From IMG/VR virus record IMGVR_UViG_3300031952_001943, positions 1-20,937 of that record: a stretch of 20,937 nucleotides of DNA; one strand, written 5' to 3'. Origin of the DNA: a virus. A program made the translations under genes and the position numbers. Shown here piece after piece: positions 1 through 16,359 of the stretch (the stretch's first letter is position 1; each line of letters opens with the position of its first letter). The notes below the pieces were generated by a model. The model had not been told where the DNA came from and made no database searches. It saw only the letters and a list, made by a program, of their open reading frames with translations.

Positions 1-333
1 CGTTCGCCTTCTCGATGTCGGTGCGGAGCTTCAGTCCAAGGCTCATGGCCGAGTCCTTCCAGTTCACCAACTGCGCCTGCTTACCACCCACCGACACCAC
101 GAGGATCGCCCGCTCCGGCTTCACCTGCGCCACGGCGGCCAGCACTACGTTCGTCTTGCCGAGACCCGGCTCGTCCATGAGAAGGTATCCCCCATGCACC
201 GCCAGCCCTTCGAGGATGCGCTCCGCTCCCTCGATCTGGTGCGGGTAGAGTGAACGACCGTCCTTCATCTTGCGAAACTCCGGCCGGAGTTTCGCCTTTA
301 CGTCAGGAAGGAACTCGCGGTAGTCTGTGACTG
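1..333 (-). other. Start of SNF2-type superfamily 2 helicase domain (cut by window edge)
   Basis: In the same frame as the giant protein, the sequence reads DYREFLPDVKAKL, then SLYPHQIEGAERILEGL (Q-motif-like HQ), then GGYLLMDEPGLGKTNVVL (motif I, Walker A, with K1740), then ERAILVVSV (motif Ia region). This order is typical of SNF2/DEAD-like superfamily 2 enzymes. The usual DEMGLGKT appears here as DEPGLGKT. The DEAH-like motif II and the second RecA lobe would lie beyond the left edge. Confidence 0.85.
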
Positions 334-3300
334 CAACTTCCTGTTTCGGATCGTCTCGTACTGCCGCTTCCACTGGCGCATTTTCTCGAACAGCGACTTC
401 TGCTCCTGCTCGTTCAGAAGCTCGATGCCGTCCAGTGCCACCACCGTCTTCGGATCGAGTGGGTTTGACTCCTTCGGGTTCTCCTGTTCCACGGCCTATC
501 CCTCCCTTCGGCATATCCTTCGTCGGATCGACGAGGACGGTCTGAATGAATGTCTTGCCCGTCCGCGTGACCATGATCTTCTTGCGGATGAGCTTCGGGT
601 TGTCCTTCTTCCTCCCGGCCTTCAGGAGGTCAACGAGCGTCGCCCATCTCGACCGGATGAATCGCCCCGGAGGGAGAAGTACCGTGTCAGGATGTGCCCA
701 CCGCTTCGCCGTGTACGTCTTGCCTTTGCGCTTGACGTAGACGATCTTCGGGAACTTCGCACCACGTTTCGAGACGGCCTGTCCTGCCTTCAAGAGGGCC
801 AGCCCCTCCTCCATCGTGAGACCGGCCTTCTCAAAGAGCCTCCCCTGAAACGCTTCCCGGCCGATGTAGGTCTCGAAGTCGAGGTCACTCTCACCTTCGG
901 TGCGGCTCCCCGAGGTTTCGAGAGAGGACACAACCTCGACCTTGTGCGGGTTGATCGCCCGGTACAAGGCGTCCAGCATCTCGATCTGAACCGTCGTGAG
1001 GTGCTGAGGAAGGGCAACCTCCATGTCCCCGCCGATCTCGCCGAGGTTGGACAGCTTGACGGCATGGTACTTCTTCACGAACCAGTAGGGGCTGATGTAG
1101 TCCGAGGATTCACCGTAGTAGTCCGGCGCGTGGCCCTCTTCGAGTGCCCTCGCCGCTTCTGCCGTCCGAACGTGATCGCTCGGTTCCCCAATGCGCCTCC
1201 CGGCGAGCAGTACCCCATCCGGGAGGAGGTAGATCGCCTCCTTCCAGTTCTGCGTCGTGCCGATCTCCTGCTTCAAGTCCTCAAGGACGGACTTCGGCGT
1301 GATCTTCTTCGGCTCCCGTTCCTTCGTGACCACCGCTTTCTTCGTCCGGGGATCGGTGCGATAGTACCCCTTGTGCTTCGGAGATGGGGAGACGTAGACA
1401 CGCTTCGACTTCTCGAAAGCCTTCGCGTAGGCCAGTGCCCGCTCCGGCACCCGGAACGTGCGGCCCGCTTCGTCCACGATCCTCGCAAATCCCTCGCCGA
1501 TCTCCTTCACCCGCCCCACGATCCCACGGCCAAGAGAACCGGACGCCGCCGCACTGATCCGCACGGTCTCTCCCACATCCGCCGTCGGCTTCTTCTCCTC
1601 GGGTTGCTTGTGCTCATGCCGACGCCGGATGAACTCCTCAGCCTGCTCCCGCGTCTTCCCGACCTTCAGCCACCGGCCGCCGTGCTGGATGTAGAAGCCG
1701 TCCGGGCGCTTCTGAATGTCGTCCGGCTTCGGAGCCGGTGCCTGTTGCTTCGGCGCTTCACCCGGCTTCACCCACCGCTTCTGGTAGATGACACCCGTCG
1801 GCCGGTGCACCATGATCTGTTGCTGGATGAGTCCCGGAGCCGGGGCGGCTTTGAGTAGGCTCTTCAGAAGAGTGAGGCCGCTCTTCGTGATGCAGGCCCG
1901 GATCAGCGGCTCGACCTTTCCGAACTCCTCGTCCGTCAGGTAGGCGTGCTTGTAGACCTCGGGAAGGTTCTCTCCCGTGAGGTAGTGACCGTAGGGATGG
2001 ACAGCACCCGCCTTGTATTCGCCCCCCTCCTTCCGAGTCTTGTTGGCCGCGAACTGCTCGAAACACCGCGCCCACACTTCCATCGGGGAAGCTATGTACT
2101 CACTGATGTCCAAGAACCGGGAGACCGTTCCCATCCCCGCCAACTTGTCCCACAGTGCGACGAACTCGGTGCTCGGAGATGTCTCTCCGAAAGGCCGCAA
2201 CGCTCGGTTCACCACGTCGGGGGACAGCCACTTCTGCACTTGCTCGGCGGTGATCGGGTTGTTCCCGATACCCACATGGTAGTTCTTCACACCATGCTTC
2301 CGAGCATCCTCAAGCCATGCGTCCACGAGTTCCCGAGCCTCTTTCATGTCGATGCTGTAGAGAGCCTCTTTCGCCACCTCATCGTAGAGAGCCGATAGCA
2401 CCACTTTCTGCGGAAGGGATGAAGCCCCCCGTATTTCCTCATTCGACTGACGGTCGAACTCCTTGAGATTCAACCCGCGCATCATTGTGACGCCAGAATG
2501 GTAGTCAACAGCGTGCCCGATCTCATGCCCAATCGTTTCTTGGGAGTCACGCCGGATGTGGATGACGTTGTCCGACGGAACGAAGTCTCCCCGAACGGCC
2601 TCTCGGTTGAACCCGAAGCTGGTCTCGACGGAAAGTTCCACACCCTTGTCGTGAAGGAAGTCCCCGAGATCGCCGAAAGCCTCCCCGAGGTTGTTCAGGC
2701 CACGTTCCAGATTGTTCTGCGCCTCCAGAGGAAGAACGTGCAGACCTCGAACCTCCTTGAATCCTCGAAAGACAGGACGACCCTCTCCCTTCTTCTGCTC
2801 GGTCTCGGCGGGTGCACTCTCTGTGGCGGGTTCCTCACCCGGCTTGATCCACCGATCCGAGTAGAAGGTCTTCCCCGCCCTGTGTACCAGAACCTTCCTC
2901 TTCACCAGACCGGGTCGTGCCTTGAAGAGATCGAGTGCCTTGCGCCACAGGCTCTTCTCCTCCGGCTCGTAGGCAAGCTCCTCGGGCGTGTAGCGGAACT
3001 CCTCGGGTTGCTGGATGCCTTCACCCGGCATGGCGGGCACGATCTTGCCGCTCACCCGGTCGTACTTCTCCTCGTCCGGGAAGATGTGCTCCCACCAATG
3101 CCGACAACAGTTGTGCACGACGCACCCTCGCACAATGTAGCTCTCGTCATTTTCTACCGCCAGATTGTAGGTCGTTCGATGCTGACTACTCTGTGAAAAC
3201 CGAACCACTCGAACGCTGGAGACTTCTACGTCGGTGAACTCATACTCGTGCCGATCGTTTGCGACCACTCTCTGAACTTCCTCAACACAGGAGTCCACAC

Positions 3301-5374
3301 CCTTTGTGATCTCCGTACCGGAAAACCGCAACACTCGAAACCCCTCGGCTTCGATCTCTCGTTGCCGTTTCGCATCGTACTCCTTTTGCCGAAGATGCCA
3401 GTATTCCCCATCGCACTCGATCAGTACGTTCGTTCCAGAAACTCGGAAGTCTGCGAAGAACCTCCGCACGGGGAACTGCCGTTCGTAGCCGATGCCAACC
3501 TGATCCAATGCCTTTGCGAACCGAACTTCCAAAGGACTTCCCTTCGCTCCCTTCGCACAGGATTGCATCAGCTTTCTCCGGGACTCTGGAGTATTCAACC
3601 AGTTGAACTCGGCCATCTTTCGTCGAGCTACTACACGCGCGGCCTCTGTGATTTTCCGACGATCCTCCTTTGAGGTGCTTGCATACCTTTTCTGGACGAT
3701 CTCTCCCATCTGCCCTTTCTTGATCGCTCGGTATTCCGGCTTTTCCCACGTCCTCCTCATTGATAGCGTAGAGCGGCACGATGCACTGCACACGTCATTA
3801 GAGTCGAACCGCTCCGCATCACTCCACATGATGAGTTTTCCACAGACCTTGCACCGCTTCGCAAGCACTCGAACCTTGTCCCCTTTGCAAAGGTCTTTTG
3901 CGTCTACCCACCCTTTGCTCGTAAGGAACGGGTGCTCGAAAGTGCTCCGAAGAATGACCCGTCGATGCGTGTAGCTCCCCTTCTCACGAGCAAGGACGTG
4001 AAGCTGGACGTACCCCCTCGTTTCCTGTCCTCGATGAACTTGTGTCACGCGCCGGAAGCGCCCCTGATGGGTGAGAACAAGGTCTCCCACTCTGATTTTG
4101 GAAATCCCCATCCATCCCTTTGAAGTGAAAACCGGAATGGTGGGGTCTATGAAACACGGATGCGAAGGGATCGCCGCCCACCACTGGCTCATCTTCCGGC
4201 CGATGTTGTTCTTGCCGATCCATGTCACGCCGGTTGCCCACGGATCGAGTTCGATCCCGATGCGGTCGTCCTGTCTCTGCTTCACCGACGGATCGGCCAC
4301 GAGGAGGTAGATGTTCCCGATGAACTGGTTGCACCCACCCGCACCCTCCGGCGGATAGAACGGCCCGGAGTAGACGACGTAGGCTTTCTCGCCCTTCTCG
4401 GTCGCGTCCAGCACGGCCGCGAGGAAACCGTTGTTCATGGCCGTGCTCATCTCGGTGATCGCGATACGCCGCCAGTCCCGTTGCAGGTATTCGAGGTTGG
4501 CCTTGCTGTACTTCCCGCCGAGAGCATCCTGCGGGTCGATGTGGAAGAGACGGCTCGCGAGTGTGCTCGGGCCAGCACCGTCCTCGATGCTTCCCGTCAC
4601 CACCTTGCGAACGGCGTCCACGATCCCTCGCCGCAACGTGCCGTCCTTGATCGAGAGGTACTGACCGGCGCTCTGCCTTGCCTGCTCGACGCACCGCCGC
4701 ATGACCGGCCCCATGTCCACCGCATCTCTCGTATCTGAAAGATTTCGGGGCAATCCGTCCTTGAACTTGTCCGAGACCTGTGTCAGCGAGAGGTTCTTCA
4801 GTCCCTCCCGATCCAGCCCCTCCACGGCCCCATACGAGTATCGAAGCATCCCTAGCAGGCCAGCACGGAGGCCCATCTCGTCCCCGATGTCCCCGAGGTT
4901 TTCACGGAGGAACTCGACCATCCCGGTCTCCATTTCCTTCCACTGTGCCTCTGTCATGGGTGTACCAGTCTCGGGATTCGTGAACGTCCTGCCTCCGAGC
5001 TTCATCGGCTTTATGGTGCCTTTACCCGCGATGCCGTACCGCTTGTAGTAGTCGTGGAGGGGCGCTGGATCAGAAAGGTCTTCCAGAAGCGCCTTCAGCG
5101 CGTCCGGTATTGCCCACACGGGGGCTTTCGCCGCTTTGATGAGATCGGCCACGGGAACCGTGACCGACTTGGAGATGCTGTCAGGATCGACCCCGAACTT
5201 CCGCGACACGCCGCGCATCACTTCGCGCATCACGTCTCGGACGTAGGCGATGACGGCCTCCTGATACTCCCGCTCGAAACGGAACTCGGACAGAGGAAGC
5301 TCCCGCACCTCCCGCGCCTTCGCGAGGAGCGCCGACTGATTCAGCCGTTCGCCGTTGGTGATCGAGAACTTCAC
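1..5374 (-). CDS. Giant polyvalent protein, partial: MuF head-morphogenesis domain, intein, HExxH peptidase, SNF2 helicase start
   Basis: The minus frame is open from a GTG at 5374 to the left edge, giving 1791 full codons with no stop, so the C-terminus lies outside the window. Residues 1-406 resemble MuF-type head-morphogenesis proteins, ending in WWAAIPSHP. A 349-residue intein (407-755) follows, then the extein resumes with CCRHWWEHIF, so splicing would restore the MuF-like HPxCR motif. After repeat B2 comes a zinc-peptidase-like region with HEIGHAVDY (HEIGH at 950-954). Next are repeat B3, an SH3-like segment (GRGIVGRVKEIGEGFARIVD), repeat A4, a region with YLLPDGVLL, repeats B4 and B5, and a SNF2-like ATPase with DEPGLGKT (D1734 to T1741). 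Known MuF proteins attach at the portal, and polyvalent proteins are thought to be injected with phage DNA. The GTG start has only a weak ribosome site. Frame continuity was checked by translating the whole stretch by hand. Confidence 0.88.
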   Translation of the reverse strand, partial: MKFSITNGERLNQSALLAKAREVRELPLSEFRFEREYQEAVIAYVRDVMREVMRGVSRKFGVDPDSISKSVTVPVADLIKAAKAPVWAIPDALKALLEDLSDPAPLHDYYKRYGIAGKGTIKPMKLGGRTFTNPETGTPMTEAQWKEMETGMVEFLRENLGDIGDEMGLRAGLLGMLRYSYGAVEGLDREGLKNLSLTQVSDKFKDGLPRNLSDTRDAVDMGPVMRRCVEQARQSAGQYLSIKDGTLRRGIVDAVRKVVTGSIEDGAGPSTLASRLFHIDPQDALGGKYSKANLEYLQRDWRRIAITEMSTAMNNGFLAAVLDATEKGEKAYVVYSGPFYPPEGAGGCNQFIGNIYLLVADPSVKQRQDDRIGIELDPWATGVTWIGKNNIGRKMSQWWAAIPSHPCFIDPTIPVFTSKGWMGISKIRVGDLVLTHQGRFRRVTQVHRGQETRGYVQLHVLAREKGSYTHRRVILRSTFEHPFLTSKGWVDAKDLCKGDKVRVLAKRCKVCGKLIMWSDAERFDSNDVCSASCRSTLSMRRTWEKPEYRAIKKGQMGEIVQKRYASTSKEDRRKITEAARVVARRKMAEFNWLNTPESRRKLMQSCAKGAKGSPLEVRFAKALDQVGIGYERQFPVRRFFADFRVSGTNVLIECDGEYWHLRQKEYDAKRQREIEAEGFRVLRFSGTEITKGVDSCVEEVQRVVANDRHEYEFTDVEVSSVRVVRFSQSSQHRTTYNLAVENDESYIVRGCVVHNCCRHWWEHIFPDEEKYDRVSGKIVPAMPGEGIQQPEEFRYTPEELAYEPEEKSLWRKALDLFKARPGLVKRKVLVHRAGKTFYSDRWIKPGEEPATESAPAETEQKKGEGRPVFRGFKEVRGLHVLPLEAQNNLERGLNNLGEAFGDLGDFLHDKGVELSVETSFGFNREAVRGDFVPSDNVIHIRRDSQETIGHEIGHAVDYHSGVTMMRGLNLKEFDRQSNEEIRGASSLPQKVVLSALYDEVAKEALYSIDMKEARELVDAWLEDARKHGVKNYHVGIGNNPITAEQVQKWLSPDVVNRALRPFGETSPSTEFVALWDKLAGMGTVSRFLDISEYIASPMEVWARCFEQFAANKTRKEGGEYKAGAVHPYGHYLTGENLPEVYKHAYLTDEEFGKVEPLIRACITKSGLTLLKSLLKAAPAPGLIQQQIMVHRPTGVIYQKRWVKPGEAPKQQAPAPKPDDIQKRPDGFYIQHGGRWLKVGKTREQAEEFIRRRHEHKQPEEKKPTADVGETVRISAAASGSLGRGIVGRVKEIGEGFARIVDEAGRTFRVPERALAYAKAFEKSKRVYVSPSPKHKGYYRTDPRTKKAVVTKEREPKKITPKSVLEDLKQEIGTTQNWKEAIYLLPDGVLLAGRRIGEPSDHVRTAEAARALEEGHAPDYYGESSDYISPYWFVKKYHAVKLSNLGEIGGDMEVALPQHLTTVQIEMLDALYRAINPHKVEVVSSLETSGSRTEGESDLDFETYIGREAFQGRLFEKAGLTMEEGLALLKAGQAVSKRGAKFPKIVYVKRKGKTYTAKRWAHPDTVLLPPGRFIRSRWATLVDLLKAGRKKDNPKLIRKKIMVTRTGKTFIQTVLVDPTKDMPKGGIGRGTGEPEGVKPTRSEDGGGTGRHRASERAGAEVAVRENAPVEAAVRDDPKQEVAVTDYREFLPDVKAKLRPEFRKMKDGRSLYPHQIEGAERILEGLAVHGGYLLMDEPGLGKTNVVLAAVAQVKPERAILVVSVGGKQAQLVNWKDSAMSLGLKLRTDIEKAN
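518..586 (-). repeat. Protein repeat B, copy B5 (giant protein)
   Basis: It encodes RKKIMVTRTGKTFIQTVLVD followed by PTK, preceded by LVDLLKAG and placed just before the SNF2 part. Confidence 0.8.
686..751 (-). repeat. Protein repeat B, copy B4 (giant protein)
   Basis: It encodes PKIVYVKRKGKTYTAKRWAH followed by PD, preceded by LALLKAG. Confidence 0.82.
1337..1408 (-). repeat. Protein repeat A, copy A4 (giant protein)
   Basis: It encodes SKRVYVSPSPKHKGYYRTDP followed by RTKK, at residues 1323-1346. It is preceded by KAFEK, as A2 is preceded by KSFEK. Confidence 0.88.
1751..1825 (-). repeat. Protein repeat B, copy B3 (giant protein)
   Basis: It encodes QQQIMVHRPTGVIYQKRWVK followed by PGEAP, just after the peptidase-like region. 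Confidence 0.85.
1830..2830 (-). other. Zinc metallopeptidase-like domain (HExxH) inside the giant protein
   Basis: This segment lies between repeats B2 and B3 of the giant protein. It contains IHIRRDSQETIGHEIGHAVD, with the zincin motif HEIGH at residues 950-954. Downstream, SPMEVWARCFEQFA (E1099) resembles the conserved E...ARxFE segment seen in phage polyvalent-protein peptidase domains and could supply the third zinc ligand. Family knowledge suggests such domains act on host or virion proteins after injection. A role in maturing this polyprotein is my inference. The domain borders are approximate. Confidence 0.72.
2831..2902 (-). repeat. Protein repeat B, copy B2 (giant protein)
   Basis: It encodes KRKVLVHRAGKTFYSDRWIK followed by PGEE, just after the MuF extein resumes. 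Confidence 0.85.
3110..4156 (-). other. Intein with Vsr/DUF559-like homing endonuclease domain
   Basis: This is a 349-residue in-frame insertion within the giant MuF protein. It starts with Cys1 (CFIDPTIPVFTSKGW) and has a block-A-like segment ending IRVGDLVLTH. Block B contains STFEHPFLT with T72 and H75. Block F/G reads TYNLAVENDESYIVRG then CVVHN, ending in the canonical His-Asn, and the +1 extein residue is Cys. The Hint splicing fold occupies about 1-100 and 305-349. Between them are a Cys cluster (C102, C105, C123, C127) and a PD-(D/E)XK-like nuclease resembling Vsr/DUF559 (SPLE at 207-210, FFADF at 233-237, ECDGEYWH at 247-254). The insertion lies in the most conserved MuF motif, as is usual for inteins. 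GC looks lower than the host gene: hand counts of 60-base blocks give 50% at 3661 and 57% at 3421. All splicing residues are present, so activity is likely. Confidence 0.93.
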
Positions 5375-5383
5375 GCCGTCACT

Positions 5384-6829
5384 CTAGCCTCTCGGAGGCT
5401 GGTTGGGCTTCGCCTGTGCGATGGGCGTCCCGGTCTTCATGGACGACGCACCCGCACCGCGCACGAGCTTCTTCGGCCGGGGTTCCGGCGTTTGCAACTT
5501 CGCGAGTGGCGCAGTCGAAGGCTTTGGTGGTGCTTTCGAGCCGAGGGTCTGCGCGATCTGTTGCGGGAAAGCCTTCACGAGCCGCCCATCCTCCAACGTG
5601 CAGTTGAGGTCGTCGTCGGTGAAGATCGACTTGCGGAGGAAGGACTTCCCGTGAACCTCTCCACCCTCCTTCTTCCGCTGGTATGATGCTTTTCGCGCCT
5701 GCGACTCTTCGTGCTTTCTCACCGCTTTACCCTCGGGGGTCTGGTAGAACAAGTCGTGACGACGCTTATCCTCCACAGTGTCGCGCCAGCGATTGTACCC
5801 AAACTCCAAATCTTTCAAGCCCTTCTTTTTCCGCCACGTATCGTAGGGATGCTCCAAACCCTTTTCTCCTGCCTCTGCCCGCCGAAAAAGGTCTGCTACC
5901 CTCTCTTCCGCACTCGCGCCTTTTGTCTTCTCATGAGCCGCTCTCGCCTTTTCCCCACGAAAAGGTTCACCCTTCGGCCCGAACTTCTCTACGGTCTCTT
6001 TCCGCGTCCACGGCTTCTTCGCCAGCATCTCATTGGTGAAGTCAACGCCAGCCTGCATCCCCTTGACTTTCGCGGCAATCGCGTCCGTCCGTTCCTTGTC
6101 CCCAACGAATCTGGCCGCCCCTGTGTCCTCCGGCTTCTCTCCCGTGCTCACCCACTGCTTGCGCTGGAACGTCTTGCCCCCGCGCTTCACCGTGACCTGC
6201 TTCTGCGTGAGTTTGGAACGGTCGAAACCCTTCAGAAGACTCTCTTCGAGAAGCGCCGAGGCGTCTTCGAGACTCTTCTCGACCGAGGGCGGCCCGGACT
6301 CCTTGCCCGTCTCGATGCCGAACCGCTTCGCGGCCTTCCTGATCCTCGACCAGATCGACTTCTGTTGCTCCGGGCTGTAGACGCCCGCGTTCTTCGGCTT
6401 GCTGAAGTAGGAGATCGCCGCCCGAACGTGCCCTTCGTCGTCGATGGGGTACTTGAAGTTCTTCGGATCGGCGTACTGCTTCTCCTTCTTCGCCCCGCCC
6501 TCGCGGTACTCCTTCGGCGGCGTCTTGTGCCCGCCCTCGACCCCCGCCTTCGGGAGAGCCTTCACGAGCCTGCCGTCTTCCAGCGTGGCGCTCTTCAGCA
6601 GATCGTCGCCGTCCTTCTCGAATACACTCTTCTTCATGGCTCCAGCCTCCATTTTCTTCAGCCGTGTGTAGTAATTAGAAAACTCGGCAAGGTGATCGAG
6701 GGCAATCTTCCGAGCCAGCTTGGGATCGTTCGTGTGCTCCATCTCCACCTTGACGCCCATCGCCAACTCCCTCGGATCGGCGTCCTTCTCGGTGAAGTTT
6801 TCCTTGTCGGCCTTGCCTTCCATGTTCAT
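5384..6829 (-). CDS. Multi-module virion cargo-like protein: DUF5661 + DUF6582 + linker repeats
   Basis: This 481-residue protein starts at ATG 6829, which overlaps the upstream stop in an ATGA junction behind AGGAAG. A longer in-frame extension to 7045 overlaps the previous gene and is rejected. Residues about 22-60 (GVKVEMEHTNDPKLARKIAL) match my memory of DUF5661. Residues about 84-175 (DPKNFKYPIDDEGHVRAAIS, KSIWSRIRKAAKRFGI) match DUF6582. Repeat copies C3 (67-94), B1 (210-234), D2 (326-390) and C4 (399-423) follow, and the tail is Pro/Lys/Ala-rich. Nothing catalytic is visible. It sits just before the giant MuF gene and shares repeats with the sigma-like and giant proteins, which suggests a capsid-packaged or injected protein. 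That role is inferred. Confidence 0.85.
   Translation of the reverse strand: MNMEGKADKENFTEKDADPRELAMGVKVEMEHTNDPKLARKIALDHLAEFSNYYTRLKKMEAGAMKKSVFEKDGDDLLKSATLEDGRLVKALPKAGVEGGHKTPPKEYREGGAKKEKQYADPKNFKYPIDDEGHVRAAISYFSKPKNAGVYSPEQQKSIWSRIRKAAKRFGIETGKESGPPSVEKSLEDASALLEESLLKGFDRSKLTQKQVTVKRGGKTFQRKQWVSTGEKPEDTGAARFVGDKERTDAIAAKVKGMQAGVDFTNEMLAKKPWTRKETVEKFGPKGEPFRGEKARAAHEKTKGASAEERVADLFRRAEAGEKGLEHPYDTWRKKKGLKDLEFGYNRWRDTVEDKRRHDLFYQTPEGKAVRKHEESQARKASYQRKKEGGEVHGKSFLRKSIFTDDDLNCTLEDGRLVKAFPQQIAQTLGSKAPPKPSTAPLAKLQTPEPRPKKLVRGAGASSMKTGTPIAQAKPNQPPRG
5561..5635 (-). repeat. Protein repeat C, copy C4 (DUF5661/DUF6582 protein)
   Basis: It encodes RKSIFTDDDLNCTLEDGRLV followed by KAFPQ, a shortened copy in the same protein as C3. 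Confidence 0.78.
5660..5854 (-). repeat. Protein repeat D, copy D2 (DUF5661/DUF6582 protein)
   Basis: A module of about 65 residues: EHPYDTWRKKKGLKDLEFGY, then NRWRDTVEDKRRHDLFYQTP, then EGKAVRKHEE. It aligns with D1 almost without gaps. Confidence 0.88.
6128..6202 (-). repeat. Protein repeat B, copy B1 (DUF5661/DUF6582 protein)
   Basis: It encodes KQVTVKRGGKTFQRKQWVST followed by GEKPE. Pattern of family B: hydrophobic-x-V-x-R-x-G-K-T-F-x-x-x-x-W-V/I-x-x-G-E, preceded by an LLK segment. Confidence 0.85.
6548..6631 (-). repeat. Protein repeat C, copy C3 (DUF5661/DUF6582 protein)
   Basis: It encodes KSVFEKDGDDLLKSATLEDG followed by RLVKALPK. Confidence 0.82.
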
Positions 6830-7197
6830 GACTTCTTCCTCGCTTCGGGCGGCCCGGACAGCCTGTCCACGACCATACCCCATTCCTTCGTCGCGATTCT
6901 CCTGATACGTTTCCAGACCGATACTCGCTCCTTCACAGGGTACACGAGGTAGTTCTTCGGCTTGGAGAAGTCCCGCACCGCCGCCCTCACATGGGTCTCT
7001 GTGCCCATCGGGTACTTGAAGTTGTGCGGGTCGCCGTAGTCCCACTTCGACGTTTCCCCGGTCTCCCGGAACTGTTTCGGTGGTACGTTGTGCGCCCCTT
7101 CAGTGACGACTCTCTCCTTGCGCTCGCCCTTCTTGGTGATCCTTCCGGGGAGCGCCTTCACGAGGAGATGGCCGTTCATGAGGATGGCGTCGAACAC
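6826..7197 (-). CDS. DUF6582-like protein (123 aa)
   Basis: The preferred start is GTG 7197, which shares its G with the upstream stop (TAGTG). An internal ATG six codons later is an alternative. The protein begins VFDAILMNGHLLVKALPGR, a divergent copy of repeat C. Residues about 38-108 carry a DUF6582-like domain (DPHNFKYPMGTETHVRAAVR, then VSVWKRIRRIATKEWGM), clearly paralogous to that in the next gene. The two genes overlap by four bases and look like a duplication of the repeat-C plus DUF6582 unit. The function of DUF6582 is unknown; it is often found in phage structural neighbourhoods. Confidence 0.82.
   Translation of the reverse strand: MFDAILMNGHLLVKALPGRITKKGERKERVVTEGAHNVPPKQFRETGETSKWDYGDPHNFKYPMGTETHVRAAVRDFSKPKNYLVYPVKERVSVWKRIRRIATKEWGMVVDRLSGPPEARKKS
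7138..7197 (-). repeat. Protein repeat C, divergent copy C2 (123-aa DUF6582 protein)
   Basis: It encodes VFDAILMNGHLLVKALPGRI at the N-terminus; only the second half of the pattern is well kept. Confidence 0.6.
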
Positions 7198-7559
7198 TAC
7201 GAAACCAGCACGATGTTGACTACGTTCGCATGGGTCGTGTCGAGGTTCGTGAGCTTCAACGCCGTGATCGCCGATCCATCGGCCAACACAACGATCTTCC
7301 CGGATGAGACGGCTGTGACGATGGCGTTCCACTTCGCGCTCACCGCGTAGTCCGCGAAGATGAAGATCGCCGTGGCCGAGGTGATCTCGCCGAAGTCAAC
7401 GACGTGATCCGCTTCTGCCGCCGTCAGCGACACGTCCTGCACCACCGCTTTCGTGATTCCAGACAAGGTTTTGTTCACCACCCTGTTCACCCGGTCGTTC
7501 ACCGAACTCGTGGTCGCCGCACCGTAGAGCCGGAGCGAGATTGAGAGTGTCGCTTCCAT
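7197..7559 (-). CDS. Small beta-rich protein, possible virion structural component
   Basis: This 120-residue protein starts at ATG 7559, one base after the upstream stop (TAGCATG). It is Ala/Val/Thr/Ser-rich with alternating hydrophobic stretches (TSATAIFIFADYAVS, NAIVTAVSSGKIVVLADG, ALKLTNLDTTHANVVNIVLV), suggesting a compact beta sandwich. It has no Cys, no membrane segment and none of the A-D repeats. Its place between cargo-like genes in the head operon fits a minor head, decoration or fibre-like protein, but I recognise no family. Composition differs sharply from its Lys/Arg/Glu-rich neighbours. Confidence 0.75.
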   Translation of the reverse strand: MEATLSISLRLYGAATTSSVNDRVNRVVNKTLSGITKAVVQDVSLTAAEADHVVDFGEITSATAIFIFADYAVSAKWNAIVTAVSSGKIVVLADGSAITALKLTNLDTTHANVVNIVLVS

Positions 7560-7560
7560 G

Positions 7561-8640
7561 CTACTTCCCCGCCTTCTTCCGCAGGGCGTTGTGCGCCATC
7601 TTCTCGGCGGTCTCGTCGCTCATCTTCGGGTTGCCCTTCTTGAAGCGGGCGGCCATCCCCTTCGACTCGGCGCACTTCAGTAGGTCGCTGGCCTTCTGAA
7701 GCGACGCCATCGCGCCCTCTTCGGACGCCACCTTTGGCCCACCGAAATCGGCACCGGGGTTCTTGGACTTCTTGCCCTTGTTGGCGAGGCGCTTGCCCAT
7801 GCCACCCGGCTCTTTGTCTCCGCACTTCTCCAGCGGAATCTCGACGAGGTTGCCGTCCACGATCTCGTGGCTCTTCAGGAACTCGTCACCGTCACCGAAT
7901 ACCGAAGTCCTCTTGTCCGCGTTCATGATGTACCTCCCGACAGCGCCCCAAGACTTCAGGACGCGCTTGTCGTCGAAATCAGGGAAGTTCAAGCTGAACT
8001 TCCGAACCCGGCCGTCCGACGTGCGAACTTCCGTGTAGTAGTCCTCCATCTTGTCGCTCAACGTGAAGCCGTTCCCCGGAACGTACTTCCCGGCATCGCC
8101 CCCCGTGGTGTAGATCATCTGGTGCTTGCCGCCCTCGCTGTAGATCACGCTCTCCTGATTGAAGTCCTTGCCAAGCGCCGTGACCTCCTCGCGGTTCGCA
8201 TCGTGCACCAGCACGAGGTAGCTGTTCTCTTCGCCGCCGTAGTGTCCCTTGACCGGCGTGTAGACGTAGCCCAACTCCTTCAGCTTGCCCCCGAGCTTCT
8301 TGTGGCGGGCCTCGAAGTAGGGATCGTCTCCCTTCATGGCCTTCTCTTCGTCGGAGCCGGGGTTGCGCCCGGCCGAGACCAGCGCGTAGCGCACCTTCTC
8401 GGACTTCAGGAGCACCTCCAAGTCCATCGAGGACATGGCGTACTCGCGGCCCTGCCCCTTCTCCTGCCGCTTGGTGCCGTTCAAGAAGCGATAGACGGCT
8501 TCCTGCCTGTGATGCTCCGGCATCTCCTCGTAGGAAGCGTACCGCTTCTCGGCCGGTTCCTTCGGATGGGCCTCGCGAGGATCGAGCCGGTAGTAGGGTT
8601 TGCGCCCGCTACTGCCGCCGGGAACGAAAATCTTCTTCAC
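7561..8640 (-). CDS. DUF3293-like protein with N-terminal repeat A and internal repeat C
   Basis: This 359-residue protein starts at GTG 8640, sharing a base with the upstream stop (TAGTG), with AAGGGG upstream. A longer reading to 8760 runs into the upstream gene and is rejected. It begins directly with repeat A3 (VKKIFVPGGSSGRKPYYRLD). Residues about 84-185 resemble DUF3293: YALVSAGRNP, RHKKLGGKLKELGY, EENSYLVLVHD, then LGKDFNQESVIYSEGGKHQM. Repeat C1 is at 245-272. The last 45 residues are basic (SDETAEKMAHNALRKKAGK). DUF3293 function is not established. The repeats link it to the sigma-like and giant proteins. Confidence 0.85.
   Translation of the reverse strand: MKKIFVPGGSSGRKPYYRLDPREAHPKEPAEKRYASYEEMPEHHRQEAVYRFLNGTKRQEKGQGREYAMSSMDLEVLLKSEKVRYALVSAGRNPGSDEEKAMKGDDPYFEARHKKLGGKLKELGYVYTPVKGHYGGEENSYLVLVHDANREEVTALGKDFNQESVIYSEGGKHQMIYTTGGDAGKYVPGNGFTLSDKMEDYYTEVRTSDGRVRKFSLNFPDFDDKRVLKSWGAVGRYIMNADKRTSVFGDGDEFLKSHEIVDGNLVEIPLEKCGDKEPGGMGKRLANKGKKSKNPGADFGGPKVASEEGAMASLQKASDLLKCAESKGMAARFKKGNPKMSDETAEKMAHNALRKKAGK
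7825..7908 (-). repeat. Protein repeat C, copy C1 (DUF3293-like protein)
   Basis: It encodes TSVFGDGDEFLKSHEIVDGN followed by LVEIPLEK. Pattern of family C: S-V-F-x-x-D-G-D-x-L-L-K-S-x-x-L-E-D-G-x-L-V-K. Confidence 0.75.
8572..8640 (-). repeat. Protein repeat A, copy A3 (start of DUF3293-like protein)
   Basis: It encodes VKKIFVPGGSSGRKPYYRLD followed by PRE, at the extreme N-terminus. Confidence 0.85.
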
Positions 8641-10661
8641 TAGTCGGCCCCTTGCACTTCCGCTTCGGTCATGTGCCTGCCACGAACGGGGTGCATCCCG
8701 GCGGCCTTCGTCGCAAGCTCCTTCGTCGAGTACACCGGAGCCGGGCGCTCTTGGCCCCATCCCTTCTGCCCTTGCGGGATGTAGGTGAACCCGCCCTTGA
8801 TCTTCATGATGTCGCGAACCATGTCGTCCGCACCGAACACGCTCCCTACCTTGCCCTCACCCGCCGGTTCCCCGGACTCTGCCACGCGGGTCTGCTTCCT
8901 CTCACGAGCGGCCTTGCGAGACGCCGCATCTTCCTGCTTCCGAAGAGCCTGTCCCTCCGGGGTCTGGTAGAACTTCTTCCGTCGAGCATTGTCCTCCGTG
9001 ACGGCCTGCCAGTAGTTCCCCTTGAAGTCCAGAGGTTTCATCCCCTGCTTTCTCTTCCATGCGTCGTAAGGGTGCTCCTTCTTCGCCGCCGGAGTTTGCC
9101 CGCCCACCGTCCCTGTCATGGCTCCCGAACCATCGGGGAGCTTCGCCATTGTTGCCTTCTTCTCTCGCGGGTCTTGACGGTAGTACCCCTTCCGCTTCGC
9201 TGAAGGCTTCACGAAGATGCGCTTGCTCTTCTCAAAGGACTTTTCCTCATAGAGTGGTTCCGTTTCAGTCCTGTCGATGAAGTCCTCCAACATTCCTCGC
9301 GTGACGTGCTTAGGAAGAAAACCGCTGATAGAAGATGACCTGTCCCAAACGTAGTCACCGAAGGTTTGGAGCAGTTCTCGCTTCAACCCCACATTCTTCA
9401 CACCCTTCTCCGAGAGAAACGCCTCGACCACTTTCTTTGCCCTTGCATCGTACTGATCTTCCTCTTTTCGAGTTCTTGGATCGTTCCTGTAGTAGCCCTT
9501 GTGTCTCAGCGAGGGCTTCACGAAGATGCGCTTGGCCTTCGCGAGGAGACTCTGGCCGACCCGCATCACCCACCCGATCTTCGGCTCCTGCAACGCCTTC
9601 TCCAGCGTGACGATGTTCTCGAAGAGCGCCTTCTCCATGCGCTCGCCGACCTTCTCCAGTACGTCGTCGGGCACGTCGGTCAGGCCGAGGCTTTCGATGG
9701 CCTTCAGCATCTCCTCGGCCACGATGTTCTCGATGACCTGCGACGCCGTCTTGGCCGGGTACATTTCCCGCATCACCCACCCGCTCAGTGTCTTGATCCG
9801 GGCGAGGTGCTTCTCGACCCCCTGCCGCGTCATGCCCAACTGCTTCGCCACGGCCGAGTGCGTCGCGGGCCTCCCGCTCGTGCGCTGGTTCTCGATGAGA
9901 ATCTGGAGCACCTTCGACTGTGTGGGGTTGAGCTTCTGGTAGACCTCTTGCAGGATGCGGTCGGCGTTCATTCGCTGGAAGATCGCTTCGTCCATCGCCA
10001 CCGGCTCGTGCGCCGCTATCGTTTCGCCAAGCGAGACTACCTCGTCGCCCTCTTCGCCACCTCCCGCAACCGGCTTGTCGAGACTCACCTCACCCGGCCC
10101 GGCGCTCATCACGTCCACACCCATGCCGCCCCGCTTCTTCGTTGCGGCCGGGACGAAATACTCGTGCAGAGCGTCCCGGAGCCGCCGGTAGGCGTAGGTG
10201 CCGAACGTGGCGGGCTCACCCGTCGTCGAAAGGGTGATGGCCTTCTTCGGATCGAAAGTGCTCACGGCCTCCCACAGAGCCAGCCGCCCCACCTGTTGCG
10301 CGTCCTCGTCGGCACGGGACATCTTCGGCTTGTGCGCGTAGAGCCGGTCAATCCAGTTCCGTACCATCGCTCCGATCAGCCGGTCGTTCGTCTTGTAGAA
10401 CGTGCGGAGGGCGTCCTCGTTTCGCCGAACGCGGGCCACGTCCATCTCGCTCATGTCCCGGATGAAGTAGTCAGACTGCTTCGTGCGGCCCTTCGCCGCC
10501 CCCTCCATCTCGTGCTCCTCGATGGGCCGGATGTAGAACGTCTGCCAGTAGCCCTTCTTCGTCTGAATCTTCCGGGGGATCAGCCCCGCCCGGTCGATCC
10601 TCGGCATCGCGAAGCCCTTCTCTAGGAGCTTCTCCGGTATGGGAAGGATGAAACGCATCAT
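8640..10661 (-). CDS. Sigma-70-like factor fused to a virion-cargo-type repeat tail
   Basis: This 673-residue protein starts at ATG 10661, overlapping the portal stop as ATGA, with GAGAGAAGG upstream. Residues about 91-170 resemble sigma-70 region 2: ADEDAQQVGRLALWEAVSTF followed by DP, then FGTYAYRRLRDALHEYF. Residues about 244-295 form a region-4-like helix-turn-helix (LNPTQSKVLQILIE, then HSAVAKQLGMTRQGVEKHLA). An acidic/Gly linker separates them. The tail carries repeats A1 (376-400), A2 (479-502) and D1 (529-590). Sigma factors direct RNA polymerase to promoters, and a phage copy could switch on viral genes. Its position between portal and MuF genes, plus repeats shared with polyvalent proteins, suggests it may be carried in the virion. 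That is inference; the alternative is a normal late regulator. Confidence 0.85.
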   Translation of the reverse strand: MMRFILPIPEKLLEKGFAMPRIDRAGLIPRKIQTKKGYWQTFYIRPIEEHEMEGAAKGRTKQSDYFIRDMSEMDVARVRRNEDALRTFYKTNDRLIGAMVRNWIDRLYAHKPKMSRADEDAQQVGRLALWEAVSTFDPKKAITLSTTGEPATFGTYAYRRLRDALHEYFVPAATKKRGGMGVDVMSAGPGEVSLDKPVAGGGEEGDEVVSLGETIAAHEPVAMDEAIFQRMNADRILQEVYQKLNPTQSKVLQILIENQRTSGRPATHSAVAKQLGMTRQGVEKHLARIKTLSGWVMREMYPAKTASQVIENIVAEEMLKAIESLGLTDVPDDVLEKVGERMEKALFENIVTLEKALQEPKIGWVMRVGQSLLAKAKRIFVKPSLRHKGYYRNDPRTRKEEDQYDARAKKVVEAFLSEKGVKNVGLKRELLQTFGDYVWDRSSSISGFLPKHVTRGMLEDFIDRTETEPLYEEKSFEKSKRIFVKPSAKRKGYYRQDPREKKATMAKLPDGSGAMTGTVGGQTPAAKKEHPYDAWKRKQGMKPLDFKGNYWQAVTEDNARRKKFYQTPEGQALRKQEDAASRKAARERKQTRVAESGEPAGEGKVGSVFGADDMVRDIMKIKGGFTYIPQGQKGWGQERPAPVYSTKELATKAAGMHPVRGRHMTEAEVQGAD
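8892..9077 (-). repeat. Protein repeat D, copy D1 (sigma-like protein)
   Basis: A module of about 62 residues: EHPYDAWKRKQGMKPLDFKG, then NYWQAVTEDNARRKKFYQTP, then a basic helix. It is collinear with D2. Confidence 0.88.
9156..9227 (-). repeat. Protein repeat A, copy A2 (sigma-like protein)
   Basis: It encodes SKRIFVKPSAKRKGYYRQDP followed by REKK, about 100 residues after A1 in the same protein. Confidence 0.88.
9462..9536 (-). repeat. Protein repeat A, copy A1 (sigma-like protein)
   Basis: It encodes AKRIFVKPSLRHKGYYRNDP followed by RTRKE. Pattern of family A: K+-hydrophobic-V-x-P-S-x-x-+-K-G-Y-Y-R-x-D-P-R. Confidence 0.88.
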
Positions 10662-12373
10662 GACCTTCTCTCCTCGTCGTCACGCCCGCCGAACCGGATT
10701 GTGACGTACTCGTCTGCCAGTGACTTCGCGGTTTCGGACTCCTTCATGGCCTGATCGACGCCTGTGTCAACGGCCTGTCCCATCTCTTTGTCGTTCAGCG
10801 CGTCGAACCCACCCATGCCACCGCCCTCTTCCTCACCGGGCTGTCCGGGTTGCCCCGGCTGGCCGCCCATCGCCTGTTGCTGTTGCGCCATCTGTTGCTG
10901 TTGCGCCATCTGCTTCTCTTGCTGGATGAACTGGACGTAGGTGGGGTTCAGAATGATGTCGCCGCCTTCGATGGGGGGATCGTCATGGAGAGCGCGAATC
11001 TCATTGATGGTCTTGCGATACGAGACCTGCTGTTGCTCGATGGCCGTGGCTTCACGCTTGTCCTCGATCTCGACGCCCGTGAAGACGAACTCGAAGTCCT
11101 CCCATCCCTTCTGCTCGGCCATGATCTTGTTGAAGAAGTGCCGCAAGAAGAAGAGGAGGTCTTTCACACCCGCATCGTGGCTCGCCTTGCGTTGCTGATC
11201 GGCGGCGATACCGCTGTTGCCGATGCTGATCGACGATGACTGCTCGAAACGCAGGCCGACTTCGGAAGGGTCGATCTTGTGGATCGAGCAAATCCACGCC
11301 TGCAACGTGTCCATGTACTTCGTGTACTCCATGTCGCGGTTCGCCGGGGCGAGGTTGTTCCACCGTGCCCCGTACTGGAGGAACGGCGTCTTCCACATAC
11401 CCTTGATGCCGCCGAACATCGCCATCCACTGCCGCTGAAGCTCTTCGAGTTGCTCACGGTCGAGCGTCCCCGTCTTCGGATCGAAACTGAAGAAGCCCTT
11501 CGGCATGGCGCTGTTGGAGAACTGGTCACGGTTGTACGCCGTCGCAAAGAGGAATGACGTGATGGTGTCGATGCTCTGCTCCAGCGGGCTGTAGCCGAAC
11601 AATCGGAACTTCACGTCGCTCCGCTTGTTCATGAAGTCGAAGAGGAGGTCGTCCCACCCGAACTCGGACACGATCTGGTCGAGCACCATCTGGACGTACC
11701 CGACCTCCATGTCTCCGTTCAGCCCCTTGCGAGGATCGACCGGGAAGATCGTGGCCGCATCGAGAACGTGCCAGTCGAGTACCTGACCGCCGTTGCTCTT
11801 GCGAAGCTCAACCGCCACCTGATCTATCGTGAGGAGGTCGCGCACGAGCATTTCCATCGCGTCGCCGAGCTTGGGCCGCTTCTTCGGCTCACCCTTCGGT
11901 GGATCGAACTTGAAGCCGGTGTCGTCGAACCATTTCGTGATCTGCTTGATGGCCTTCTTCTCACCGGACGAAGGATCGCGCTCTTGATCCTTGATCGTGA
12001 TCTTCCAGCCGGGCTTGTCGTCGTCGGTGCTCGGCTCCGAGAACGTCCTGATCTGTGACGCCCGCTTGTTGTGGATCGCACCGACCACTACCACCTGATC
12101 GGCCACGCGCCGGAGGATGTCGAATGAGAGGTTGAAGAACTTGCGACGGATGCCACGCGGATCGTAGAGGCCGAACTCGTACCAGTAGAGGGGGAGTTGC
12201 TCACCCTTCAGCTTCGGGACTTTCTTGCCCGTGATGACCTTGCTCTCTTCGCCGCCTTCGACTTTGCGGGACTGATCGGCTTTCATGAGGTTGGCGAGGC
12301 TGGAGAAGTCTTCGCCTTCGGAGAAGTAGGGTACGAGGCTGTCCTGTGTGTTGGGATCGAACTCTTCAGCCAT
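10658..12373 (-). CDS. Phage portal protein
   Basis: This 571-residue protein starts at ATG 12373 behind GGAGG at good spacing, just after a terminator. Portal proteins form the dodecameric ring at the packaging vertex. Features fitting the family are the stem/wing-like core (VELRKSNGGQVLDWHVLDAA, TIFPVDPRKG), the conserved segment RLFGYSPLEQSIDTITSFLF, then AYNRDQFSNSAMPKGFFSFD, and QQVSYRKTINEIRALHDDPP near the end (compare the common T.NE.R...g..p). The C-terminal 80 residues are Gln- and Gly-rich with two MAQQQQ units, an unstructured tail. The stop overlaps the sigma-like gene by four bases, implying coupled translation. Confidence 0.93.
   Translation of the reverse strand: MAEEFDPNTQDSLVPYFSEGEDFSSLANLMKADQSRKVEGGEESKVITGKKVPKLKGEQLPLYWYEFGLYDPRGIRRKFFNLSFDILRRVADQVVVVGAIHNKRASQIRTFSEPSTDDDKPGWKITIKDQERDPSSGEKKAIKQITKWFDDTGFKFDPPKGEPKKRPKLGDAMEMLVRDLLTIDQVAVELRKSNGGQVLDWHVLDAATIFPVDPRKGLNGDMEVGYVQMVLDQIVSEFGWDDLLFDFMNKRSDVKFRLFGYSPLEQSIDTITSFLFATAYNRDQFSNSAMPKGFFSFDPKTGTLDREQLEELQRQWMAMFGGIKGMWKTPFLQYGARWNNLAPANRDMEYTKYMDTLQAWICSIHKIDPSEVGLRFEQSSSISIGNSGIAADQQRKASHDAGVKDLLFFLRHFFNKIMAEQKGWEDFEFVFTGVEIEDKREATAIEQQQVSYRKTINEIRALHDDPPIEGGDIILNPTYVQFIQQEKQMAQQQQMAQQQQAMGGQPGQPGQPGEEEGGGMGGFDALNDKEMGQAVDTGVDQAMKESETAKSLADEYVTIRFGGRDDEERRS
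10874..10909. repeat. 18-bp tandem direct repeat (2 copies) in the portal gene
   Basis: Two perfect copies of an 18-base unit (plus strand CTGTTGCTGTTGCGCCAT) lie end to end and encode two MAQQQQ units on the minus strand. This low-complexity segment in the portal tail is a likely site of length variation. Confidence 0.9.
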
Positions 12374-12689: not shown

Positions 12690-14508
12690 CGGGCACCCCT
12701 CCTCCCCTGTCCCGGCCGGTCATCCGGTCGTACCCGATCCGGGCGTAGTTGTACGCATGGGCGAAGTGATCCGGGCCGATCTTCCCCACGACCTCGTACT
12801 CGGCCCCCGTAGTGGGGTCTTCTATCCGCTCCACGGCAAGGGCGCAAATGTGGTCAACGAACACCGTCGTAAGGGGGTCGAGCCGGGGGAAGGAGATGTC
12901 CTTCTCCCGGAAGCTCTTCAGAATGAGCTTCAGGGTGCCTGTACGACTCACCGTGACCTTGTTCTGGTTCAGAATCCACATGGGTTCGATGACCTTGGTG
13001 CGCTTCTTCTGCTTCTGCTTCTCATCGGTGTCGTAGAACAGACCGTATGCCCGCATCTTGTACCGCCGGATCAGGATTGAGTTGCGGTCGTTTCCGATCC
13101 CGTTCGCGTCGTTGACGACGATCCCGGCGCTGAAACGGTCAATGATCTGCCCCGCCCTTCCGACGTGATCGGTGTCGGCCCCGGAGAACCCGTGCTGTTG
13201 CAGGCTCTCCTTGTCGATCCGCTCCATGTAGATGACCGAGGGAGTGTCCGGGTTCCCCGGTACGCCGTCCCCCATCACCACCACCCACGAGACTGTCGGC
13301 CCCCAATCTATGCCGATGGCGGTGTTCTTGACCGTCGCCACCTTCATGAAGCTGTTGGCGAGAGACGGATCGCTACACGCTTCCACCGACGCCCTCGGGA
13401 TGTTGGCGTCCTCCCCGACGTAGGCGTAGCCCACCACCTCGTTCCAGAACTGGTGGACGTAGCGGTAGCCGTGGTACTTGTAGAGGATTTCCTTGCCCGT
13501 CTTCCACGGGAGCATGAAGTACGTCACGCGGTAGCTGTGTCGCAGTCCCTCCAGTGACGGCCGCCTTGCGTACCACCCCGAGTGCTTCAGGTAGAACGGG
13601 CTTGTCCTGTCGATGTACTCCTTGCAGAACTTGCACCCAATGTAGACCTTGTCGAGACGCTTCTGGTAGCTCCCCTCGTCCTCCCGGAGCGCCGTCTTCT
13701 CGAAGAACCCTATGATGCTGTCCGGGAAGGTCATCTGCTGACGCTTGTGACACCTCGGACAAACTAGCCACCACTCGTGCCCTGTCGCATCGCTGAAGCG
13801 GGCGTCGATACCGCCCCCCGGAAACATGGGGGTGCTGATCCTCGTGCGCCTTGCCAGCGTAGAGTGTGATGTGCTCTCCCCGAAAATCTCCTCGATCTTC
13901 TCGTTCTGGCTCTCGTACTCGTCGAACGTGATCTTGTCACTGGTAGGGCCGCGTCCCCCGGTCTCCGAGTACGAGGACGCCACCGTGTAGAAGCTCCCAT
14001 TCGAGAAGCCGTGCGACGACAGAGAGATGGGCTTCAACAACCGCACCCGCACAGACGGGCTGTTCATGATCGAGGGATGGATGCGCTCCTTCGCCACTTG
14101 GTTCGCCACCGAGGCGATAGGGAAGATGTGCCGTACCATCGTATTCGGCCGGGTACAGGACAGGTAGATGTTGTCCGAAATCTCGGATTCGGTAAACTCG
14201 GATTGGCGACATTTTATAATGCTCTTGTCCTGTACCGTGTCCTTCAGCACCTTGTTCAAGTAGGGCCGGGGCGCGGTCGTCAACGGGCCGTCCTTCTCCC
14301 CCCGCATCATGGACACGCCCGCATCGTCGTAGCGGAACGGCTTGCCGCTCAGAAGCCGGTTCTTCTCCGTCCACGCCATCACGTCCAGCGTCCCCTCGAA
14401 GCTGTCCGGTATCTCCTCCAAGTCACTGAACGCAGAGAACAGCCTCTCCCCGACGTGGCGCTTCCCCGTTCCCGGTATGATCTCTAGGTGCTTGAAGTCG
14501 ATGCCCAC
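12679..14508 (-). CDS. terL: Terminase large subunit, GpA-like
   Basis: This 609-residue protein starts at GTG 14508 with GGGAGGGGAG upstream. It is the ATP-driven DNA packaging motor and headful/cos nuclease. Visible features are a motif-I position IIKCRQSEFTESE (98-109), a Walker B DKITFDEYE (191-199), and an inserted zinc finger (C250, C253, C292, C295) of the kind found in lambda gpA-type terminases. The RuvC-like nuclease has GIDWGPT (D401), VVNDANGIGN (D467) and GPDHFAHAYNYA (D580). Length fits the family. The Walker A lysine region is unusual because Gly-Lys is replaced by Glu-Phe. No small terminase is recognisable nearby; the 88-residue gene just upstream occupies the usual place. 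Confidence 0.92.
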   Translation of the reverse strand: MGIDFKHLEIIPGTGKRHVGERLFSAFSDLEEIPDSFEGTLDVMAWTEKNRLLSGKPFRYDDAGVSMMRGEKDGPLTTAPRPYLNKVLKDTVQDKSIIKCRQSEFTESEISDNIYLSCTRPNTMVRHIFPIASVANQVAKERIHPSIMNSPSVRVRLLKPISLSSHGFSNGSFYTVASSYSETGGRGPTSDKITFDEYESQNEKIEEIFGESTSHSTLARRTRISTPMFPGGGIDARFSDATGHEWWLVCPRCHKRQQMTFPDSIIGFFEKTALREDEGSYQKRLDKVYIGCKFCKEYIDRTSPFYLKHSGWYARRPSLEGLRHSYRVTYFMLPWKTGKEILYKYHGYRYVHQFWNEVVGYAYVGEDANIPRASVEACSDPSLANSFMKVATVKNTAIGIDWGPTVSWVVVMGDGVPGNPDTPSVIYMERIDKESLQQHGFSGADTDHVGRAGQIIDRFSAGIVVNDANGIGNDRNSILIRRYKMRAYGLFYDTDEKQKQKKRTKVIEPMWILNQNKVTVSRTGTLKLILKSFREKDISFPRLDPLTTVFVDHICALAVERIEDPTTGAEYEVVGKIGPDHFAHAYNYARIGYDRMTGRDRGGGVPGVI

Positions 14509-15724: not shown

Positions 15725-15864
15725 GGCTTCTTCCAACCCGCACGGAAGACGAGCGTAGCAGGATGAACCCGCCCCGGTGGTGGTATCGGCTCGATCTTCA
15801 CCTTCGGCTTCACGCTCTCTAGGAGGGGTTTTTGGGCCTCACCCTTCTGGTCAGGTTTTTCCAT
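15721..15864 (-). CDS. Hypothetical small protein (47 aa)
   Basis: The reading frame begins at ATG 15864, inside the end of the preceding gene, and stops at 15721, overlapping the next start. It reads MEKPDQKGEAQKPLLESVKP and continues with a Pro-rich KIEPIPPPGRVHP to an end in RAGWKKP. It fills what would otherwise be a gap between coupled genes. No good ribosome site is visible, so confidence is moderate. Confidence 0.6.
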   Translation of the reverse strand: MEKPDQKGEAQKPLLESVKPKVKIEPIPPPGRVHPATLVFRAGWKKP

Positions 15865-16297: not shown

Positions 16298-16359
16298 TAC
16301 TTCTTCCCCTTCCCCTTCCCCGGTTTCTTCCGGCTCGGCTTCGTCGAGCACCAACTCAT
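16297..16359 (-). CDS. Tiny basic ORF (20 aa)
   Basis: The ORF starts at ATG 16359, overlapping the preceding stop as ATGA, with GAGGAGG a few bases upstream. Its TAA overlaps the next ATG. The product is MSWCSTKPSRKKPGKGKGKK, very basic. Perfect coupling signals at both ends suggest it is translated, perhaps mainly to couple its neighbours. A role as a leader rather than a functional protein is equally possible. Confidence 0.5.
   Translation of the reverse strand: MSWCSTKPSRKKPGKGKGKK

Follow-up and report, generated by a model that had tools for sequence, protein, structure and literature searches.

Hairpin repeats behind putative capsid-type cleavage sites as candidate head-targeting tags on phage effectors

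Introduction

Detailed knowledge of how phages select the proteins packed in their heads comes mainly from T4 and, more recently, from P1. An IMG/VR virus fragment of 20,937 bases (hereafter the window, meaning this whole stretch) raises that question, as five neighbouring genes close to its portal gene share short protein repeats. An original prediction, made by reading the sequence, sorted these repeats into four families (A to D) and suggested for them a common signal for head packaging or protease cleavage. Here we ask what the repeats are, where else they occur and what they may do.

Results

Gene content of the window

All head genes of the window are encoded on the minus strand. The terminase comes first, followed by the portal, the sigma-like protein, the S-adenosylmethionine-lyase/DUF3293-like protein, one small protein, the two DUF6582 proteins and, last, the giant protein. 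The genes that matter here are the following.

2..5374, minus strand: giant protein, open at the contig edge (Pfam and PHROG profile matches)
5384..6829, minus strand: DUF5661 + DUF6582 protein with A5, two copies of C and one of D (domain matches)
6826..7179, minus strand: small (first) DUF6582 protein (start inferred)
7561..8640, minus strand: S-adenosylmethionine-lyase family/DUF3293-like protein with an N-terminal B (PF23780, E 1.8e-7, above the cut-off)
8640..10661, minus strand: sigma-factor-like protein with a weak A, two copies of B and one of D (phrog_351, E 2.1e-17)
10658..12373, minus strand: portal protein, SPO1-like (~33% identity), without A or B and with one LMK↓A site near its N-terminus (here and below, ↓ marks the candidate cut)

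The tagged genes lie 5-10 kb from the portal gene and 7-14 kb from the terminase gene on the same strand, and the capsid and protease genes are outside the contig. As originally predicted, neither the portal nor the terminase of the window carries A or B. The DUF3293-like gene starts at GTG 8640, hence its B copy is the very N-terminus of the protein. Likewise, ATG 7179 is the probable start of the first DUF6582 gene, which would make a C copy the N-terminus of its product. Proteins of the S-adenosylmethionine lyase family are of a type familiar from phage antirestriction. With the sigma-like protein as query, no relatives were found in viral contigs and phage records.

The giant protein runs from a MuF-like N-terminus through an intein and a metallopeptidase-like region to repeats A1-A4 and B3 and the start of an SNF2/DarB-like helicase. 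It holds several effector-type domains in one polypeptide (intein/DUF559, a weak LPD1 match and the SNF2-type helicase region). Its N-terminus matches phrog_2468 (head morphogenesis, E 0.006) and phrog_3759 (E 8.5e-5) with no Pfam Phage_Mu_F match, and its C-terminus matches phrog_62 (DNA helicase, E 9e-11) in a domain cut by the contig end. The intein-like insert (window 3080-4165, minus strand, residues ~404-765) splits the MuF-like part and has Hint/intein-splicing matches on both sides of a DUF559/Vsr-like nuclease domain.

Repeat families in the window

Ungapped BLOSUM62 comparison of the window proteins was set against 15 composition shuffles, whose maxima were 43-56. Pairs of A scored mostly 50-95, pairs of B 101-128, D 190 and C 52-57. 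In the DUF3293-like protein, the B copy at the N-terminus scores 39-51 ungapped, yet reaches 52 bits in a profile that includes it. Repeats A, B and D are above chance, and C is borderline by itself.

The copy numbers first proposed (A four, B five, C four, D two) hold for D and had to be corrected for A and B. Repeat A has five clear copies (four in the giant protein, one in the second DUF6582 protein) and a weak sixth at the sigma-like N-terminus (E 0.004); B has four (two in the sigma-like protein and one each in the DUF3293-like and giant proteins), and C has three or four.

2816..2914, minus strand: A1 in the giant protein, PGLVKRKVLVHRAGKTFYSDRWIKPGEE; LFK↓A upstream at 2918-2929 (pairwise and profile)
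1739..1837, minus strand: A2 in the giant protein, PGLIQQQIMVHRPTGVIYQKRWVKPGEA; preceded by LLK↓S LLK↓A (pairwise and profile)
698..748, minus strand: core of A3 in the giant protein, KIVYVKRKGKTYTAKRW; LLK↓A upstream at 785-796 (profile, E 3.8e-6)
515..607, minus strand: A4 in the giant protein, KLIRKKIMVTRTGKTFIQTVLVDP; LLK↓A upstream at 617-628 (pairwise and profile)
6116..6220, minus strand: A5 in the DUF5661/DUF6582 protein, RSKLTQKQVTVKRGGKTFQRKQWVSTGE; LLK↓G at 6227-6238 (E 3e-18; beta-hairpin predicted by AlphaFold2)
10551..10595, minus strand: weak A-like copy at the sigma-like N-terminus, GLIPRKIQTKKGYWQTFYIRP; LEK↓G at 10614-10625 (E as above)
9453..9545, minus strand: B1 in the sigma-like protein, LAK↓AKRIFVKPSLRHKGYYRNDPR (pairwise and profile)
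9144..9236, minus strand: B2 in the sigma-like protein, FEK↓SKRIFVKPSAKRKGYYRQDPR (pairwise and profile; beta-hairpin predicted by AlphaFold2)
1325..1417, minus strand: B3 in the giant protein, FEK↓SKRVYVSPSPKHKGYYRTDPR (pairwise and profile)
8554..8640, minus strand: B4, N-terminus of the S-AdoMet-lyase/DUF3293-like protein, MKKIFVPGGSSGRKPYYRLDPRE (profile and gene start)
6548..6592, minus strand: C in the second DUF6582 protein, SATLEDGRLVKALPK; preceded by LLK↓S and itself holding LVK↓A
5561..5605, minus strand: second copy of C, NCTLEDGRLVKAFPQ (pairwise comparison and site count)
7137..7179, minus strand: C at the N-terminus of the first DUF6582 protein, MNGHLLVKALPGR (inferred gene start)
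7840..7920, minus strand: C-like, FLK↓SHEIVDGNLVE, in the S-AdoMet-lyase/DUF3293-like protein (pairwise comparison)
5669..5854, minus strand: D, ~60-residue duplicated domain, copy in the second DUF6582 protein (score 190)
8892..9077, minus strand: D, copy in the sigma-like protein (pairwise comparison)

A capsid-type site precedes most tags

The LLKA- and FEK-like segments noticed early on beside the repeats are real and correspond to a tetrapeptide, [LIVMF]xK[SAG], directly upstream. It lies within 17 residues upstream of 31 of the 38 non-redundant A copies, a count that is not independent since the site had been seen in the same sequences before counting; random windows of the same frames give an expectation of 4.3/38 and a maximum of 11 in 2000 draws. 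An independent set is provided by the later-found tags of a 76-kb virus contig (G040), where 12 of 13 are directly preceded by [LIMV]xK[SA] (by reading). Within the window, the giant protein has 17 LxK[SAG] sites against 7.5 expected (1 of 1000 shuffles was as high) and the DUF5661 + DUF6582 protein 9 against 2.9, compared to 1 against 2.1 in the terminase.

In phages of this group, sites of this kind are found where capsid proteins mature. According to the mat_peptide annotation of its record, the mature capsid protein of A511 begins at residue 24, SVQEDALK↓SFTTGYG. For phage 812, where the mature start rests on the depositors' choice of chain, the 439-residue chain 9row aligns to the full-length 5lii from S25, VVK↓SFQTGYG. 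Capsid and protease sequences of the SPO1 type have D-x-[LVI]-x-K↓[AS]LxAG[YH] at the matching place. The tag sites, [DN]-[LIV]-x-K↓[ASG], agree with this capsid and protease consensus of related phages, the window phage's own capsid gene being off the contig. A literature search that was thin on subscription journals and preprints returned no experimentally sequenced Herelleviridae cleavage site.

We also noted that in SPO1 the stretch surrounding the K↓[AS] site is homologous between the C-terminus of the protease (9084-9854) and the N-terminus of the capsid protein (10618-12024). The same holds for another record (L003, protease 13549-14361 and capsid protein 15834-17285).

Copies of A without an LxK[SAG] site are found in LysYB1, in Lalka8 and in most of the lineage of contigs G008 and G027. 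In G008 (L029/L076) and G027 (L054), the stretch ahead of the hairpin has Q as its last residue in most cases (FLEEQ, FIKKQ, YIEKQ, FLRKQ), which possibly reflects a different protease specificity. In a further contig (G015, L038), WVNKA stands before the hairpin.

Repeat A recurs near the portal in other phages

One A copy, used as a tblastn query, led to Lysinibacillus phages LysYB1 and LysYB2 and Exiguobacterium phage EalM-132. Further searches led to SPO1 gp5.3, encoded directly upstream of the SPO1 portal, and to a DarB-like protein of a Thermus phage. The A motif is also present in several PHROG families of unrelated content. Two degenerate DNA patterns run on viral contigs picked out 48 stretches, and by reading a genuine A stood in a long frame in 32/40 and 6/8 of them. 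The profile search of phages that the original prediction had called for matched A in 40 of the 41 records examined (E<=0.01), a figure of consistency and not of frequency, because most of these records had been collected beforehand with A-like DNA patterns.

At E<=1, no A turned up when the whole genomes of P1, T4, lambda, Mu, phiKZ, N4, phage K and LP65 were searched, nor was A found in solved structures. Matches by tblastn in Serratia, Mesorhizobium and a fecal scaffold were weak (E 0.2 to 6) and set aside; Serratia MyoSmar was likewise rejected as a carrier, its record giving no profile match and its annotated protein lacking the motif. In cellular genomes, the exact A-type DNA pattern gave four matches across 84,980 bacterial and archaeal species, all out of context, none of which reads as A in frame within a long ORF. 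This pattern was stricter than the viral one by an extra following proline codon, and such an exact-pattern test bounds the cellular occurrence of A only from below.

In the nine long records (two of which, G004 and G029, were read as circular), every A copy lies 0.6-31 kb upstream of the portal gene on the same strand, in line with the portal-region enrichment expected of a head signal. In the window, G008 and G020, A lies downstream of the portal, again on the same strand; Thermus phage Lalka8 has it on the opposite strand, about 5 kb off.

The domains that carry A within these distances are unrelated: PARP, ParB, Zeta toxin, topoisomerase IB, SNF2/DarB with N6-methylase, MuF and DUF3626. 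EalM-132 has five proteins with one A apiece, and in the window A is found on two or three unrelated proteins. This recurrence on unrelated domains fits the idea of a common signal as far as A is concerned. Nonetheless, 23 of the 40 non-redundant carriers form one linked group with homologous stretches outside the tag, so that 40 carriers are not 40 independent acquisitions. SPO1 gp5.3 is mostly tag plus a charged tail and not an effector.

In one other record (L007), three neighbouring proteins, from the ORFs at 12240, 15725 and 17076, share a further short repeated domain of the form ~W-K-x-W-x-K-x-H-G-G-x-P.

Predicted hairpins and the distribution of repeat B

From 33 aligned A segments, AlphaFold2 predicts a helix that runs up to LLK↓G and, behind it, a hairpin of two strands (pLDDT averaging about 90 at the hairpin centre, whole-model pTM 0.32). 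Repeat B is likewise modelled as a short hairpin (core pLDDT 95), and the whole-model pTM of the hairpin models is 0.32-0.36. Homology of A and B was rejected by profile comparison (hhalign probability 1%). The two are thus analogous at most, and a single receptor is not implied.

Repeat B was found only in the window and in one further virus source, represented by two contigs (G040 and G041). A B profile run on 45 records matched the window alone, the two contigs emerging later, and tblastn with B and with VKPF-type tags gave no matches in phages. One match of a B DNA pattern (L009) was discarded as chance. G040 carries 13 hairpins of B type or of a related VKxHxR type, all of them upstream of its portal and at most about 28 kb away.

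In G040 and G041 (76 and 114 kb), which come from one source, the coordinates of the portal and of the B-type tags are identical. In a 932-residue ORF of G040 (L008), the C-terminal end, SLTKSLTKSLTKSLTKSLTKS, is a tandem LxK↓S tetrapeptide.

The proposed common signal thus fits the evidence for A, and the grouping of four repeats in one class has to be given up: A is widespread, B occurs in a single further source, C overlaps the LxK[SAG] site itself and D is a duplicated domain of ~60 residues without tag behaviour. C was also dropped as a third hairpin, as it contains LVK↓A itself.

A remote homologue of A in virions

Weak matches to the A profile were obtained for phiEF24C ORF006 (E 5.6e-5) and A511 gp75 (E 0.013). 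The gp75 homologue of phage K aligns with A when searched singly, despite the lack of a whole-genome match. This gp75/ORF36 family is represented in about 520-531 phage records, its members often labelled virion structural protein, and its A-like hairpin is the densest conserved stretch, far from the N-terminus. Compared profile to profile, the family and A match with E 1.1e-5 and probability 82%.

The Listeria phage CKA15 member, CKA15_094, matches the A profile weakly, with the tag ~90 residues into the protein. Mass spectrometry of virions purified on CsCl detected this protein through 10 peptides, which cover 45% of it (PMC12282133, Table 1). Its gene is located outside the structural module, and the same study cautions that proteins encoded outside that module are perhaps not all genuine particle components (PMC12282133). 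The Herelleviridae gp75/ORF36 proteins are therefore like the tagged effectors in carrying an A-like hairpin, with one member found in virions, and unlike them in being a conserved single protein with an internal hairpin and a weaker profile match. A candidate maturation site just before A, together with a remote homologue detected in purified virions, adds to the case for a head signal.

Discussion

We favour, with a probability of roughly 0.6, the explanation that the cleavage site and the hairpin together form a capsid-targeting and maturation tag for effectors that are packaged in the head and ejected, the giant protein being a polyprotein of such modules. Mature proteins, or modules of a polyprotein, would begin with an A or B beta-hairpin or carry one close to the N-terminus. 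Before most of these hairpins, a short hydrophobic helix would end in [DN]-[LIV]-x-K↓[ASG], the type of site at which the major capsid protein is processed in this phage group. Genes near the portal would give rise to tagged proteins, which helix and hairpin would carry into the assembling prohead by binding to scaffold, portal or shell. There the prohead protease would cut after K and the helix would be lost; in the giant and DUF6582 proteins, such cuts would part modules that each begin with their own hairpin. The matured effectors (anti-restriction SAM-lyase-like, sigma-like, peptidase, SNF2/DarB-like and others) would then be ejected with the DNA.

By analogy, the T4 capsid-targeting sequence of IPI-III and Alt is a short signal on unrelated internal ejected proteins, beside a prohead-protease site, as the proposed tag would be. 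The T4 sequence is a short N-terminal peptide that is lost on cleavage. Unlike it, the predicted hairpin of the window type follows the K↓[SAG] site and would be retained, with only the helix removed: in the 31 of 38 copies that have the candidate site, the hairpin is downstream of it, not upstream as in an element that is cut off. In P1, residues 1-30 of DarB suffice to bring a reporter into the capsid (PMC9024508). This is an N-terminal packaging signal on a DarB-type antirestriction protein, and the DarB-like protein of the Thermus phage carries A. Unlike in P1 DarB, however, A is found ~100 residues in, behind an N-terminal LLAK↓A segment. Neither the T4 nor the P1 signal shows sequence similarity to A, whose profile finds nothing there at E<=1.

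Polyvalent proteins have been described as multidomain effectors (MuF, peptidase, ParB, ART, helicase) encoded near portal and terminase genes, for which packaging is predicted (PMC5512222). The giant protein resembles them in its multiple effector domains and its proximity to portal and terminase, and in the accessible part of that survey we found no shared short packaging tag. In SPN3US, the substrates of gp245 are head and ejection proteins with N-terminal propeptides cut at a common motif, with several cuts per protein (PMC10052503). The examples of that motif in the accessible part of the study end in E and thus differ from ours, and a shared retained hairpin is not described there.

The T4 precedent suggests a different division of labour, in which the LxK-ending helix is the true targeting peptide and the hairpin a separate element of the mature N-terminus, for example a basic one for DNA binding or passage through the portal. 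Site and helix are common to capsid, protease and scaffold, the hairpins vary by lineage (A, B, VKxHxR) and are rich in Lys and Arg, and the T4 targeting peptide lies upstream of its cleavage site. However, LysYB1 and the SAM-lyase-like protein start with the hairpin without an upstream helix, and in the gp75 family it is the hairpin, distant from the N-terminus, that is most densely conserved. We regard this division as unlikely. A role in ejection or unfolding, with hairpins that start the threading through the tail or bind host targets after entry, would suit their presumed place near the start of the matured proteins, and the carriers with known domains do resemble early effectors. Nothing in the data specifically favours ejection over packaging, however, and gp5.3 of SPO1 with its tag and charged tail does not look like such an effector; among the alternatives we find this one the least probable.

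The repeats could also be scars of recombination or mobile linkers, left by exchange among neighbouring genes and without a signalling role. Tags are slightly more alike within a genome than expected by permutation (0.508 vs 0.462, sd 0.021; a weak effect, z about 2, near-identical records included), as local exchange would give, and D is a plain duplication. Against this, A is conserved over distant lineages and on unrelated domains, keeps a constant position after one tetrapeptide, is confined to the portal region and, at the level of the exact pattern, is absent from cellular genomes. We consider scars improbable. Returning to the packaging tag, we propose more tentatively, and with less than even confidence, a general form of it: several lineages of tailed phages may use a modular address tag made of a prohead-protease site and an interchangeable hairpin (A, B or VKxHxR). 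Such a tag could be fitted to any effector or repeated in a giant polyprotein, from which the head protease would free, inside the prohead, a set of effectors that each bear a tag and are injected together.

A recognisable tag would allow injected effectors to be listed from sequence only in SPO1-like and other phages, and would account for the clustering of many unrelated hypothetical proteins beside the portal. It would also offer a handle for loading cargo of choice into heads of the SPO1 type in laboratory Bacillus. Should the giant protein indeed be such a polyprotein, head maturation would be a step of effector release as well.
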